From: a virus
Virus record (IMG/VR): IMGVR_UViG_3300023181_000014
Coordinates: 1 to 43,109 of that record
DNA: 43,109 bases
Reading direction: 5' to 3' (one strand)
Within the stretch, counting starts at the first letter, position 1, and each line of letters starts with the position of its first letter. Positions 27,355 to 31,733 of the stretch are shown here, piece after piece. The notes below the pieces were generated by a model. That model worked only from the letters and a program-made list of their open reading frames with translations, had not been told where the DNA came from and did not search any database. The translations under genes and the position numbers were made by a program.

Positions 27355-28335
27355 ATGAGTGAGATCATCTCGGCTCAGCAACTTCGCTTGGCCGCAAAAG
27401 GCAAGGTGAACGAGAGCAACATAAATTCCGTGCTGGTCGCGTTGAACGCCTACGGAAAGAAGTTCGGGCTGGATAAGCCGCACAGGCTGGCCCACTTCCT
27501 TGCCCAGATCATGCATGAGAGCGGCTCGTTCAAATACGATAAGGAAATCTGGGGGCCAACTGAAGCCCAGAAGCGCTATGAGGGCCGCTCTGACCTTGGG
27601 AACACACAACCAGGCGACGGCAAGCGGTTCATGGGCCGGTCGGCAATGCAACTCACGGGCCGCTATAACTACCGCAAATTCACGAAATGGTGCCGTGAGC
27701 AGCAAATCGACGCGCCCGATTTTGAGAAGTTCCCCGAGAAGATCAATACCGACCCGTTCGAAGGCCTCGTTCCGATCTATTATTGGAGCTCGCACGACAT
27801 CAACAAATACGCCGACCTTGGTGATATTGAATCCGTGACCCGAAAAGTGAACGGCGGAAAGAACGGGCTAGCCGACCGCATGGAGTACTACGGCCGGATT
27901 GCCTTGGTGCTTCTCGGATACAAGGCCGACAACGTGCGCCAGTTCCAGGCGGACCGTCGCCTAGAGGTGGATGGCGATGTAGGCCCTCGCACTCGCGCTG
28001 CGCTTCATGGCGAGCTTGTGGCACTCGTTCCCGGCGAAATGGCCAAGCCCTCGGTGCAGGTGGCTCCTGTGGTCGAGCAAACAACCATTGTCGAGGAAAA
28101 GCCTGTGGTTCCGGTAGCGGTCGATAAGCAGGTGAAAGAAAAGACGAACCAGTCAGGCTGGTTGATCGGCATCCTCGGCTCGGTCGGCACGGCTCTCACG
28201 GGCCTATTCGGGCAAGACTGGCAGACGGTTGTTGCTGTCGGCGGTGTAGCTATCGCGGCCCTCGTGCTGTTGATCCTGCTTCGTCACCAGATCATCGCAG
28301 CCGTAAAAGACATTCGCGGAGCGGTAGAGCAATGA
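27355..28335 (+). CDS. Endolysin: GH19-like domain, peptidoglycan-binding domain, C-terminal membrane anchor
   Basis: A 326-residue protein with AAAGGA before the ATG. Residues 1-190 follow the GH19 chitinase/lysozyme pattern: HFLAQIMHESG (probable catalytic Glu55), YEGRSDLGN, GRSAMQLTGRYNY and YYWSSHDIN. Residues about 193-217 (VRQFQADRRLEVDGDVG, RTRAAL) form a PG_binding_1 repeat. A charged linker (225-265) leads to hydrophobic segments at about 269-286 and 291-309, a C-terminal membrane anchor or hairpin. Such an anchored endolysin would be held at the inner membrane, with activity depending on topology or depolarisation. It overlaps the spanin gene by ATGA. Confidence 0.9.
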   Translation: MSEIISAQQLRLAAKGKVNESNINSVLVALNAYGKKFGLDKPHRLAHFLAQIMHESGSFKYDKEIWGPTEAQKRYEGRSDLGNTQPGDGKRFMGRSAMQLTGRYNYRKFTKWCREQQIDAPDFEKFPEKINTDPFEGLVPIYYWSSHDINKYADLGDIESVTRKVNGGKNGLADRMEYYGRIALVLLGYKADNVRQFQADRRLEVDGDVGPRTRAALHGELVALVPGEMAKPSVQVAPVVEQTTIVEEKPVVPVAVDKQVKEKTNQSGWLIGILGSVGTALTGLFGQDWQTVVAVGGVAIAALVLLILLRHQIIAAVKDIRGAVEQ

Positions 28336-28592
28336 TCAGCAAGGTCTCAGCCATCGTAGGCGGAATTCTTGGGGCGCTCTTTGGCATCGGTCTGTTTGGC
28401 CTTGTGAGCGTCGTTTATTTCCTCCCGCAGGCACGGGAAGAGGGCAGAGAGCTTGAGAGAGCCGCTACCCTGCAAAAATCCATCGAGACAATCCAGAAGA
28501 GGTCCAAGACCAATGCCGAAATCCGCAATCTTAGCGCTTCTGCTCTCTGCCTTGAGCTTGGCGGGGTGTTCTCAGACGGCGAGTGTCACTGA
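28332..28592 (+). CDS. Inner-membrane spanin (Rz-like)
   Basis: An 86-residue protein. Residues 5-32 form one N-terminal membrane helix (VGGILGALFGIGLFGLVSVV in part), followed by a charged helical periplasmic part (REEGRELERAATLQKSIETI in part) and a short Cys-containing C-terminus. It is ATGA-coupled to the endolysin, and a lipoprotein gene is embedded in the +1 frame of its 3' part. That is the classic i-spanin arrangement for disrupting the outer membrane at lysis. Confidence 0.8.
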   Translation: MISKVSAIVGGILGALFGIGLFGLVSVVYFLPQAREEGRELERAATLQKSIETIQKRSKTNAEIRNLSASALCLELGGVFSDGECH

Positions 28593-28725
28593 CGGAAGCG
28601 GGTTTGCGCTTCTTCACCCGTCACCAGCTACCCGCCAGTTCATCATTTCGAACGATCGGCCGTTTGCTGATGAGGTCGCCGGCCATAACCGGACCTGTGT
28701 CAGTCAACCCGGCTGCGCTAAATAA
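28513..28725 (+). CDS. Outer-membrane spanin lipoprotein (Rz1-like), embedded
   Basis: A 70-residue lipoprotein starting MPKSAILALLLSALSLAGCS. The hydrophobic signal ends in the lipobox LAGC, with Cys19 as the acylated residue. The first 80 nt overlap the i-spanin gene in another frame, and the gene then extends past its end. AGAGG lies about 10 nt upstream. The mature part is short and Pro/Gly-containing (FALLHPSPATRQF, VSQPGCAK). With the i-spanin it would bridge both membranes and fuse them after endolysin action. Confidence 0.85.
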   Translation: MPKSAILALLLSALSLAGCSQTASVTDGSGFALLHPSPATRQFIISNDRPFADEVAGHNRTCVSQPGCAK

Positions 28726-28888
28726 TCGGCTAGACGCCCTGCTTCAACAGAGCGCCTAACCTAACCGTAACGATTTCACGGATCGAGAACGGCTCATCGC
28801 AGGATAGCCCCCTATCGTTCCAATTTTCCTAACAGGCATGAAGCAATACGAGGGCATAACGGGAATGGGAAATAATGAGGACAATCAC

Positions 28889-29212
28889 ATGGACGCCGCA
28901 GACCTACGTTCGCGGGTTGTCGCTGTGGAGCACAATTTCTCAGCTGCCCTTGCGCGGTTGGCTATTGTGGAGCAGTGGAGAGCCCAGATGGACATTCTCA
29001 CAGCACGCAGAGATGAACAGTTCAAGAATCTCACGGATCGGTTCGACGGTCTCAACGTCAAGATCGACAACGTGAAGACGGAGATTTCCGGCGACCTTGG
29101 GGAATTGAAGGGGTCGCTAACATGGCTGTCCCGTTTAATCATGGGCTCGATCATTACGTGTGGGATTGCCGGCTTGGTTGGGCTGCTGTTCAAGCTGTCT
29201 CAGCCTGGGTAA
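28889..29212 (+). CDS. XhlA/holin-like protein: coiled coil plus C-terminal membrane helix
   Basis: A 107-residue protein. I choose ATG 28889 for its GAGGA 7 nt upstream; ATGs at 28865 and 28838 are alternatives. The N-terminal two thirds is a coiled coil (LRSRVVAVEHNF, RRDEQFKNLTDRFDGLNVKI in part) and residues about 82-102 are one membrane helix (LIMGSIITCGIAGLVGLLF). This N-out coiled coil with a C-terminal anchor resembles XhlA-like lysis proteins. As the last gene of the lysis cluster it is the best holin candidate, but this is not certain. Confidence 0.65.
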   Translation: MDAADLRSRVVAVEHNFSAALARLAIVEQWRAQMDILTARRDEQFKNLTDRFDGLNVKIDNVKTEISGDLGELKGSLTWLSRLIMGSIITCGIAGLVGLLFKLSQPG

Positions 29213-29216
29213 GCCG

Positions 29217-29251
29217 CCACTCTCTCCTTATATATATAGAGAGTGGTTTTT
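29217..29251 (+). terminator. Strong intrinsic terminator after lysis genes
   Basis: CCACTCTCT (29217-29225) pairs with AGAGAGTGG (29238-29246), a 9-bp stem with a TA-rich loop, followed by TTTTT. It ends the late operon before the attachment region. Confidence 0.9.
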
Positions 29252-29278
29252 GGGAGAACGTCCCTAGAACATAGTGTG

Positions 29279-29467
29279 CTAACCAGGTGCGTAATTTTCC
29301 GGGTTGAGGGCCGGCGACCAAACTATTTCTCGCGCCATAGAAAGAGCAACAAGCGCTTTCTCTCTTGAGAGGTACCATCCCAGCGTTTTCAGGTTTCCGT
29401 CAATCCTCATCGGAAACGAGAGCCCTCTTGCCGCATGGCATCTGTATTTCTCGATAGGCGTGAACAT
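29279..29467 (-). CDS. Small hypothetical protein, leftward
   Basis: A 62-residue minus-strand frame beginning MFTPIEKYRCHAARG and containing LGWYLSREKALVALSMARE, which reads like a real helical protein. An AAAGGA box lies 10 nt before this ATG. A competing ATG at 29471, in another frame and only 6 nt from the same box, would give a 23-residue peptide. It lies beyond the integrase on the same strand, across the attachment site. Uncertain. Confidence 0.4.
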   Translation of the reverse strand: MFTPIEKYRCHAARGLSFPMRIDGNLKTLGWYLSREKALVALSMAREIVWSPALNPENYAPG

Positions 29468-29604
29468 TCATAGTACATCCTTTCGCTTCTGTGTGCCGCC
29501 AGCGTGTCACATGTGCCGCCGCGTTTCTGAATCGTTCCGGTTTTAGGCGTTGTAACCTGCATAGATGATTTCTCGCATTTTCTGCTGGAACATCGAAAAA
29601 GGGC

Positions 29605-29633
29605 TTGATCAGCAAGGGCTTTGCCCGTATCAG
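29605..29633 (+). promoter_or_regulatory. Possible promoter upstream of the tRNA half
   Basis: TTGATC (29605-29610), a 17-base spacer and TATCAG (29628-29633) resemble a sigma-70 promoter whose start would fall just before the tRNA 5' end at 29643. Such a promoter would be needed if the lysogen must express the restored tRNA from the phage side. The match is moderate and not proof. Confidence 0.35.
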
Positions 29634-29642
29634 GGCCTCAAC

Positions 29643-29686
29643 GGAGAGGTGGCCGAGTGGTCGAAGGCGCTCCCCTGCTAAGGGAG
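29643..29686 (+). other. attP: Candidate attP core: 5' half of tRNA-Ser(GCU)
   Basis: These 44 bases match the 5' half of an alphaproteobacterial tRNA-Ser(GCU): acceptor GGAGAGG, D-arm TGGCCGAGTGGTCGAAGGC, anticodon stem CTCCC/GGGAG and a seven-base loop CTGCTAA with anticodon GCT. Homology stops after the anticodon stem, and no variable arm, T-arm or CCA follows. Lying just past the 3' end of the integrase, it is best read as the integrase attachment core for a host tRNA-Ser gene. Integration would leave the host 3' half joined to this phage-borne 5' half. Confidence 0.8.
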
Positions 29687-29792
29687 TTTCCAGTTACTCC
29701 GTTACCTATTCCAACCAATTGATTTCATTATTTATTACTGTCAATATTTTTCTTTGTGTCATCGGCCTGTGCCGTAAAGTTACCAAAGGCAT

Positions 29793-30758
29793 TCATTTTT
29801 TGCCGAAAACCCGGTCGATCACTTCCCGGTTATTATCCCCCTCAACATACGTCTCCATGAGCAGCCGGCGCGATTTCCACCCGCCGTGGTCACCAGTCGT
29901 AGCCGCGTCCACGCCGTTGCGAACGATCATCTCTGTAGCAAAGCCATGTCTGCCAAATTCATGGCTTGTGAGACGCGATAGGCCCGCGTGCTTTATCACC
30001 TTGTCCACCCGCTTTTTGATGGTCGATCGGTTTGCAGCCGCAAAAACTAGTGTCGGGTGAAGGCTGCGAATGTTTGCCAGGTCGATGACCATGGCGCGGG
30101 TCAGGAAGACCTTTCGTGGCGTCGTCTTGGTCTTGGAGAGGAATGCGGTCCCGAGCTGCAGATTCACGTCATCCCATGTCAGCCTGCAGGCCTCAGAGAC
30201 GCGGGCAGCGGTTTCGAACATGAACCGGGCCACAGCGGCGGTCTCTGGCATGTTGAGCTTCTTTGCGGCCTTACTGAAGGCGTCAAGCCATTCCTTGCTC
30301 CCTGCTGGGCGCGAGGTGCGCTCTTCCTTGAAGCGGGTGACTTTCACAGGGTCACAATGGCCGGCATCAGCCGCGTGGTTGATGATAGCCCGCATTGGCG
30401 TCACAACCTGTCGGTTTAGCGTGGCATTGGCTGCTTTCGGGTATAGCTTCTTCGCTGCCTTACGGATCTCAAGGCCGGTGATGTCCTTCACCTTCCAATT
30501 CTTGAAATGCTTAAGGAGGGGCGCCGTGAACCGCCGATCGCGGCCATCATCAAAATAGGCTGCGACAATCTCAGGGAAGGTTAGGACCGCCTTTTCACCG
30601 TGGACAGCGGCACGACGGAGCCTCGCTTCGTGTTGATGCGCGATGTCTTCCGCGAGCCTTCTGTCGCTCGTCTTAGAAGATTTTCGAACCCGTGTTCCGT
30701 CAACGGTGAAATCATACCACCAAATTGTTCCGTCTTTTCTTGTGTAGACGTATGGCAA
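29793..30758 (-). CDS. int: Tyrosine recombinase integrase
   Basis: A 321-residue integrase counted from TTG 30758, which follows a GGAG; the frame extends to 30842 but that part lies in the excisionase gene and is not integrase-like. The N-terminal PYVYTRKDGTIWWYDF is the usual arm-binding start. Catalytic residues fit the family: Arg186 (AARVSEACRL), Lys211, His266 and Arg270 in SHEFGRHGFAT (a HxxxRH variant), Trp294 (HGGWK) and the nucleophile Tyr304 (METYVEGD). It would recombine attP at 29643-29686 with a host tRNA-Ser gene. Confidence 0.92.
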   Translation of the reverse strand: MPYVYTRKDGTIWWYDFTVDGTRVRKSSKTSDRRLAEDIAHQHEARLRRAAVHGEKAVLTFPEIVAAYFDDGRDRRFTAPLLKHFKNWKVKDITGLEIRKAAKKLYPKAANATLNRQVVTPMRAIINHAADAGHCDPVKVTRFKEERTSRPAGSKEWLDAFSKAAKKLNMPETAAVARFMFETAARVSEACRLTWDDVNLQLGTAFLSKTKTTPRKVFLTRAMVIDLANIRSLHPTLVFAAANRSTIKKRVDKVIKHAGLSRLTSHEFGRHGFATEMIVRNGVDAATTGDHGGWKSRRLLMETYVEGDNNREVIDRVFGKK

Positions 30759-30955
30759 GGTGATGGCTCCGGTTTGGCGGCATTGATGATTGTGTCTATG
30801 TCGGTGGGCAGCAAGAACATCGCTTTTCCAATGATCCTGCAAGCCCCGATCGATCGGGCTCGCTCTCGCAGTGTCCTTTCGGATATCTGGATGCCCGCCG
30901 CCTGGAGCTTGGCAACGGCCGTCGCCGGGGATATGGCTTCGTCAAGGACCGTCAT
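30581..30955 (-). CDS. Excisionase-like DNA-binding protein
   Basis: A 124-residue minus-strand gene directly before the integrase, overlapping it by about 178 nt in another frame. The N-terminal 60 residues (SPATAVAKLQAAGIQISER, TLRERARSIGACRIIGKAMF in part) form a winged-helix/HTH_17-like recombination directionality factor of the rhizobial type. The C-terminus is Ser/Thr/Lys-rich (GSRKTSRINTKRGSVV). Its start overlaps the preceding stop by ATGA. Likely Xis; the long C-terminal overlap with int is unusual but the tail reads like protein. Confidence 0.7.
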   Translation of the reverse strand: MTVLDEAISPATAVAKLQAAGIQISERTLRERARSIGACRIIGKAMFLLPTDIDTIINAAKPEPSPCHTSTQEKTEQFGGMISPLTEHGFENLLRRATEGSRKTSRINTKRGSVVPLSTVKRRS

Positions 30956-31365
30956 TTCTGGACCTCGCTTTCAATGAACTCCTTGAGGGAACCGTGATTG
31001 AGAAACCATTCTCCGTGCCGTCTATATTCCGAAAACTGCTTATGCAGCTCCTTCTCACGAGACTTGGCGCCTGGAACGGTCCCTAATAGGGTCAAGTCAA
31101 CCGGGGAGGTGGATCGAAGGTCGCGCAACCGATATGTAAGGTTCACCGTGTAGCCAATCTTGACCAATTCACCAGCCGCCAGAAAGTAGACGGCTCCGCC
31201 GAAAAACGGCTTTGCGCCCGTCTCAATCGCTTCGATCTGATCCGAGTGAATTCGGATTAGGGGAAAATCCATCTTGACGAGATCCCCTCTTTCTATCATT
31301 CGGAATATGGTTGCTTTTGAGCATTCCCATTTCTTGGCAAGGGTGGCCGGCGTGTAGACTGTCAT
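30952..31365 (-). CDS. HTH plus GIY-YIG/T5orf172-like fusion protein
   Basis: A 137-residue protein starting MTVYTPATLAKKWECS at ATG 31365, with GGAAGGA upstream. Residues 1-50 are an HTH_17/excisionase-like DNA-binding domain (ATLAKKWECSKATIFRMI). Residues 55-130 are a T5orf172/MUG113-type GIY-YIG domain: GAVYFLAAG, VKIGYT, a central Arg, KELHKQF and HGEWFL. The same domain without HTH is in the gene at 1193-1786. It could be a site-specific nuclease or a regulator that uses the fold only for binding. Coupled to the excisionase by ATGA. Confidence 0.75.
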   Translation of the reverse strand: MTVYTPATLAKKWECSKATIFRMIERGDLVKMDFPLIRIHSDQIEAIETGAKPFFGGAVYFLAAGELVKIGYTVNLTYRLRDLRSTSPVDLTLLGTVPGAKSREKELHKQFSEYRRHGEWFLNHGSLKEFIESEVQK

Positions 31366-31733
31366 TCCTTCCTCTCCTTTGCGTCTAGCGCGGCGCGGTT
31401 GGCCTCTTGCGTTGATGCAATGTACCAAAGCGTTCCGTTTTCATTGGCGCGAGCCTTGGCTTCGGCCACGCGATCGGCGTTGCAATGCTCCGATGCGTAG
31501 AGGTTTAGCCAGTCATCAATCGCGACGACAGATCTTTCCAGCGCCGCTCTCAGTTCCGCATTTTCCCTTTCGAGAGCATCAGCGCGTTTGTTTGCCGCTC
31601 GTGTCCGCTTATCCAAATCACGTAGACGGCCAGAGAGAATTCGCGCAAGGTCGTAGTCTGATCTTGCCGGACCGTACCGCTTGGCAAAATCAGCATAAGC
31701 TTCTTCGTCTGTCTGGGTGACTAGATAGCTCAT
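31362..31733 (-). CDS. Hypothetical coiled-coil protein
   Basis: A 123-residue protein from ATG 31733, after GGAGGGACGG. The N-terminus is MSYLVTQTDEEAY; residues about 38-70 are a strong coiled coil (RDLDKRTRAANKRADALERE in part). The C-terminal half is helical (RVAEAKARANENGTLW). No enzymatic motif. It overlaps both neighbours by 4 nt. Confidence 0.65.
   Translation of the reverse strand: MSYLVTQTDEEAYADFAKRYGPARSDYDLARILSGRLRDLDKRTRAANKRADALERENAELRAALERSVVAIDDWLNLYASEHCNADRVAEAKARANENGTLWYIASTQEANRAALDAKERKE

Follow-up and report, generated by a model that had tools for sequence, protein, structure and literature searches.

A tRNA gene half beside a phage integrase gene

The DNA analysed here is a stretch of 43,109 nucleotides (the window; IMG/VR virus record IMGVR_UViG_3300023181_000014), and it raises a simple question: why does a phage carry the 5' half of a host tRNA gene, preceded by what looks like a promoter, next to its integrase gene? 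Comparison with host genes identified the 44 bases at positions 29643-29686 (+ strand) as the acceptor 5' strand, D-arm and anticodon stem-loop of tRNA-Ser(GCU), as a preliminary description of the sequence had proposed; the copy is exact through the whole anticodon stem. T29687 is likewise the same as in the host gene, and the match stops at 29688. With at most one mismatch, the 44-mer is found in 116 of 120 genomes from the genus that includes the lysogen Rhizobium sp. BK313; it is single-copy in 115 of the 120, and that lysogen alone has two copies. ARAGORN and Rfam yielded no complete tRNA in the window, as expected of a half gene, and the predicted folding of the half-tRNA transcript was not notable (z -1.86).

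The core ends 106 bp from the stop codon of a tyrosine integrase gene (int, 29793-30842, - strand; Pfam PF00589, E 7.5e-19). The catalytic residues R214, K237, H294, R298, H319 and Y332 are all present and are invariant among relatives. The 349-aa ORF was called from an upstream TTG (window 30758-30842), and alignment to relatives places the start at TTG 30758, giving a likely product of 321 aa. Beside int, positions 30952-31428 (- strand) encode a GIY-YIG/T5orf172-type protein with a helix-turn-helix. To the left of the tRNA half, PHROGs matches identify lysis genes (endolysin, a small gene and a holin/XhlA-like gene; 27355-29212, + strand). With lysis genes on the left and int on the right, both flanks are phage DNA, and the site is thus an attP rather than a junction with host DNA. 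Like the attachment sites of tyrosine-integrase prophages in tRNA genes, it adjoins int and shares a block of identity with the host tRNA gene, a block that also recurs at both junctions of lysogens.

A search of viral contigs with this block returned 48 stretches, in which copies consisting of the half alone mostly adjoin a related integrase gene. Relatives whose integrases are 67-78% identical, among them Rhizobium phages RHph_I1_23 and RHph_TM3_3_3, have this half too, in the same orientation. Where flanking sequence was available, the distance from the tRNA half to int was about 100 bp in all relatives except one (284 bp). In a more distant integrase group (51-53% identity) the order of arms, promoter and tRNA is kept, and int lies on the promoter side, adjoining a complete tRNA. 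In two such stretches, L098 (G198) and L038, the attP layout is otherwise the same and the integrase gene has shifted to the promoter side; a partner junction was looked for in both and was not found.

We consider it about 93% probable that positions 29480-29790 are the attP of a temperate Rhizobiales phage, in a reversed arrangement in which a phage promoter takes over the tRNA gene. The half could instead be a gene remnant or a recent pick-up of host DNA rather than a working attachment site, and its exact identity to the host gene, together with the lack of a complete tRNA in the window, is what such an origin would leave behind. That reading is hardly credible in view of the fixed position relative to int, the conserved repeats flanking the core and the used junctions in relatives' lysogens described below.

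Junctions in the lysogens of relatives

A search with the terminase for closer relatives returned many matches at up to 75% identity. A lysogen of the window phage itself was not found, and the junctions analysed are those of relatives with 67-78% identical integrases. Both junctions were recovered for four lysogens, comprising three genomes, namely Rhizobium sp. BK313 (G001), R. lusitanum Opo-234 (G004) and a Hyphomicrobiales MAG (G002), and one IMG/VR prophage contig (G005); the junctions of G004 and of G002 are each split over separate contigs. In G001, 62.9 kb separate the two copies of the 44-mer.

All four lysogens have the same two junctions. One (attL) consists of the host promoter, the 5' half lacking a 3' half, and int. 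Its upstream DNA matches the native upstream region of a sister host (89.5% over 600 bp in G001, 82% in G004, 77% in G002 and 97.6% in G005), and its downstream DNA showed no match to the sister host in any of the four. The other (attR) consists of phage DNA, a promoter assigned to the phage by its sequence, and a complete tRNA-Ser(GCU), which ARAGORN calls as tRNA-Ser(gct). Upstream of attR, no host match was found within 600 bp in any of the four lysogens; downstream, the 3' half of the tRNA matches the host, as does the flank in G001 and G005. The element therefore brings the 5' part of the gene, and the complete attR gene lies downstream of element DNA. Upstream of the complete tRNA in G002 lie a small gene and a gene whose product, judged from its sequence, is endolysin-like and similar to the endolysin on the left of the window's attP. 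The hexamer TGTGYC occurs at -151, -140 and -131 from the complete tRNA in the attR of G001 and G005, shifted by one base in G004, and at -151 in the further stretch L009. These are the left-hand repeats of the free phage site, and they mark the DNA before the complete tRNA as phage attP; exact left-hand TGTGYC is absent from the attR of G002, which has variants only.

The junctions thus map to tRNA-Ser(GCU), and the identical segment does not extend over the 3' half; neither of the two outcomes that the preliminary description had named as refuting it was seen. Comparison with host genes and prophage junctions, which the preliminary description had called for, upholds the attP assignment through the same half near int in relatives and the used junctions in their lysogens. 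It also agrees with the prediction that the restored tRNA would lie behind phage DNA and a phage-borne putative promoter.

An ordinary tRNA-targeting attP, after whose integration the tRNA keeps its host promoter, would be the expected arrangement. Retention of the host promoter is the usual case, and a review states that bacterial recombinant tRNA genes use their original promoter with very few exceptions (PMC8371274); the distantly related integrase of phage phiU (40% identity) is also associated with a 3' tRNA part. In all four lysogens, however, phage DNA lies upstream of the complete tRNA and the host promoter is found at the other end with the 5' half alone. This refutes the ordinary arrangement for the relatives and makes it highly improbable for the window phage.

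A pattern consisting of the anticodon loop CTGCTAA followed by a T-arm detected one complete tRNA per genome in six of six genomes, three of which are lysogens. In these three, the only complete tRNA-Ser(GCU) gene detected consequently sits behind the phage promoter. A gene for the tRNA that decodes AGC and AGU is essential. The phage promoter should therefore be needed in these lysogens, and its importance for lysogen survival may be inferred for the group. ARAGORN also calls a 97-nt tRNA-Ser(gct) at the R. lusitanum Opo-234 attL, on the 5' half and adjoining phage DNA (L079, 1501-1597); this call is a false positive, and at face value it would credit the lysogen with a second gene.

A putative tRNA promoter on the phage side

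The promoter predicted in the preliminary description consists of a -35 element TTGATC (29605-29610, + strand) and a -10 element TATCAG (29628-29633, + strand), separated by a 17-base spacer, with the latter ending 9 bases before the tRNA. The combination TTGATC-N17-TATCAG at 29605-29633 is unique in the window, where 0.01 chance matches are expected. Many native Rhizobiaceae tRNA-Ser(GCU) genes have the same layout, with TTG at -38 and TA at -15. A matrix built from 59 native sequences, hand-picked and preselected for TTG at -38, ranked position 29605 first among 86,142 window positions, with a score of 28.3 against 18.6 for the next. The box is thus the best match to a tRNA promoter in the 43 kb, and its position is kept in relatives, TTG being found at -38 in 12 of 12 non-redundant phage sites. 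A generic sigma-70 and terminator scan of 29200-29900 gave no matches; the blank sigma-70 result is explained by the departure of TATCAG from TATAAT.

Column entropy in the 12 phage sequences, which share ancestry and are not fully independent in this comparison, was 0.51 in the hexamers as against 1.08 in the spacer (p 0.007) and 1.33 in the far flank (p 5e-6). Two promoter types predominate, TTGATC/TATCAG and TTGCAA/TAGTTA. Since the promoter of the G001 prophage resembles that of other Rhizobium lineages and not that of its own host, its sequence suggests capture from another host.

Such capture would also fit a promoter that is only a passenger, acquired with the tRNA half while the rebuilt tRNA is transcribed from elsewhere in the phage. 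The phage promoters do look like native promoters of other lineages, and the native type found in other Rhizobium species differs from one of them (L080) at 8 of 38 positions. Against a mere passenger, the hexamers have stayed alike where spacer and flanks have diverged, and the genes directly upstream are lysis genes, which are expected to be silent in a lysogen. We consider a passenger promoter very unlikely and favour an active phage promoter. Because attP itself contains the tRNA promoter, placed after the P arms and before the core, one could further imagine that arm-bound Int or excisionase modulates the host's only AGC/AGU-decoding tRNA, that lysogeny alters its level through the swap of promoter type, and that the tRNA promoter facing the 3' end of int in attP and attL gives rise to antisense RNA. 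These effects are rather unlikely, if conceivable.

Direct repeats flanking the core

Putative arm sites of the type TGTGYC flank the core on both sides as direct repeats (+ strand). On the left (P) side, TGTGCC at 29492-29497 lies at -151 from the tRNA half, and 11 of 14 phage-side sequences have TGTGYC at -151 or -152. The variant CGTGTC at 29503-29508 (-140) stands where relatives have TGTGYC at -140 or -141, and TGTGCC at 29512-29517 (-131) is likewise a positionally recurrent site. On the right (P') side, the sites are TGTGTC at 29755-29760, 69 bases after the core, and TGTGCC at 29768-29773 (+82); the common positions in relatives are +82 and +93. In total, 32 TGTGYC words were counted on the left against 3.1 expected and 21 on the right against 1.15 expected, 10 to 18 times the shuffled expectation. 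The window itself has four in 284 bp, where 0.09 are expected (P ~3e-6). The repeats would be protein-binding sites.

The preliminary description had instead proposed GTTAC words to the right of the core as arm sites. Such words do exist, and their starts at 29693, 29701 and 29779 are off by one base or a few from the positions first given. As arm sites they were rejected, as the same stretch of 16 relatives has no GTTAC; only the one at 29779 coincides with an arm-site position of relatives (+93). A scan of viral contigs for triple TGTGYC, aimed at other target tRNAs, gave matches outside the known family that have no tRNA nearby and look like chance. Between the left arms and the promoter (window 29518-29570), many relatives share the further conserved words GAATCGTTCYG and, less strictly, AACCTGCA; this stretch is possibly an IHF or excisionase site.

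Strand exchange and a model for integration

The anticodon stem-loop CTCCC-CTGCTAA-GGGAG (29670-29686, + strand) is the probable site of strand exchange, with a 7-base overlap at 29675-29681. In G002, the right stem is that of the phage (GGAAG) at the end of the half copy in attL and that of the host (GGGCG) in the complete attR copy, which places the exchange to the left of this stem. The anticodon loop is named as the usual exchange site in PMC8371274, and the dyad symmetry fits this. Exchange most likely occurs in the anticodon loop, at a cut position predicted from these sequences.

Taken together, the + strand would read TGTGYC P arms, sigma-70-type tRNA promoter, tRNA-Ser(GCU) 5' half, TGTGYC P' arms, and int directed toward the core. 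Within the core, the anticodon loop would be the most likely place for Int to exchange strands. The integrated phage would have an attL made up of host promoter, 5' half and int, and an attR in which the P arms and the phage promoter precede the 5' half, now fused to the 3' half from the host. The presumably active phage promoter would then drive transcription of the only tRNA-Ser(GCU) of the host.

Comparison with known systems

Almost every bacterial element that inserts in a tRNA gene leaves transcription to the host promoter, and this group of rhizobial phages appears to substitute its own promoter at a single-copy, presumably essential tRNA gene. Its natural lysogens are ready-made promoter swaps for measurement, and the presence of two partial copies of tRNA-Ser can be the sign of a prophage.

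One phage for comparison is Rhizobium phage phiU (AB004561), which has a related integrase (40%), an annotated 44-bp core and TGGCACA (= TGTGCCA) repeats beside the core, on its outer side as well. What it carries, however, is a 3' part, from another tRNA and in the usual orientation, and it was rejected as a precedent for the orientation seen here. One integrase scaffold can thus use a tRNA target in reversed orientation, and the two cases, the window type and phiU, suggest that related integrases could use their target either way round if the core is symmetric. The phiLM21-like prophages of Sinorhizobium meliloti share the target gene, integrating in tRNA-Ser(GCU), and the gene is reported to be reconstructed on integration (PMC12429752, PMC5537653).

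In tRNA-dependent lysogeny of mycobacteriophages, the lysogen likewise needs phage DNA to make an essential tRNA; in that case a whole phage tRNA gene complements the host tRNA, which has been destroyed, whereas half a gene and a promoter are supplied here (PMC10865867). That system combines a short core that does not rebuild the gene with a phage tRNA of the same isotype; here a 44-base core rebuilds the gene in relatives, and the window has no tRNA gene.

A similar arrangement is that of the archaeal pTN3-type integrases, whose attB is a tRNA 5' half and whose rebuilt gene uses an element-side promoter (PMC8371274). In the same account it is the promoter of the int gene that drives the tRNA, whereas here int lies on the opposite side of the core and is read toward it, and the tRNA is preceded by a putative promoter of its own, of bacterial type. 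Recombination with the 5' part is the less frequent class according to PMC6563490, which cites Zhao & Williams 2002 for an element that is likewise bacterial and uses the 5' portion of its target gene for recombination. Carriage of a 5' rather than a 3' part, which the preliminary description had singled out as unusual, is rare and already known (PMC8371274, PMC6563490), and the rhizobial phage arrangement is a well-supported further case of this reversed orientation.
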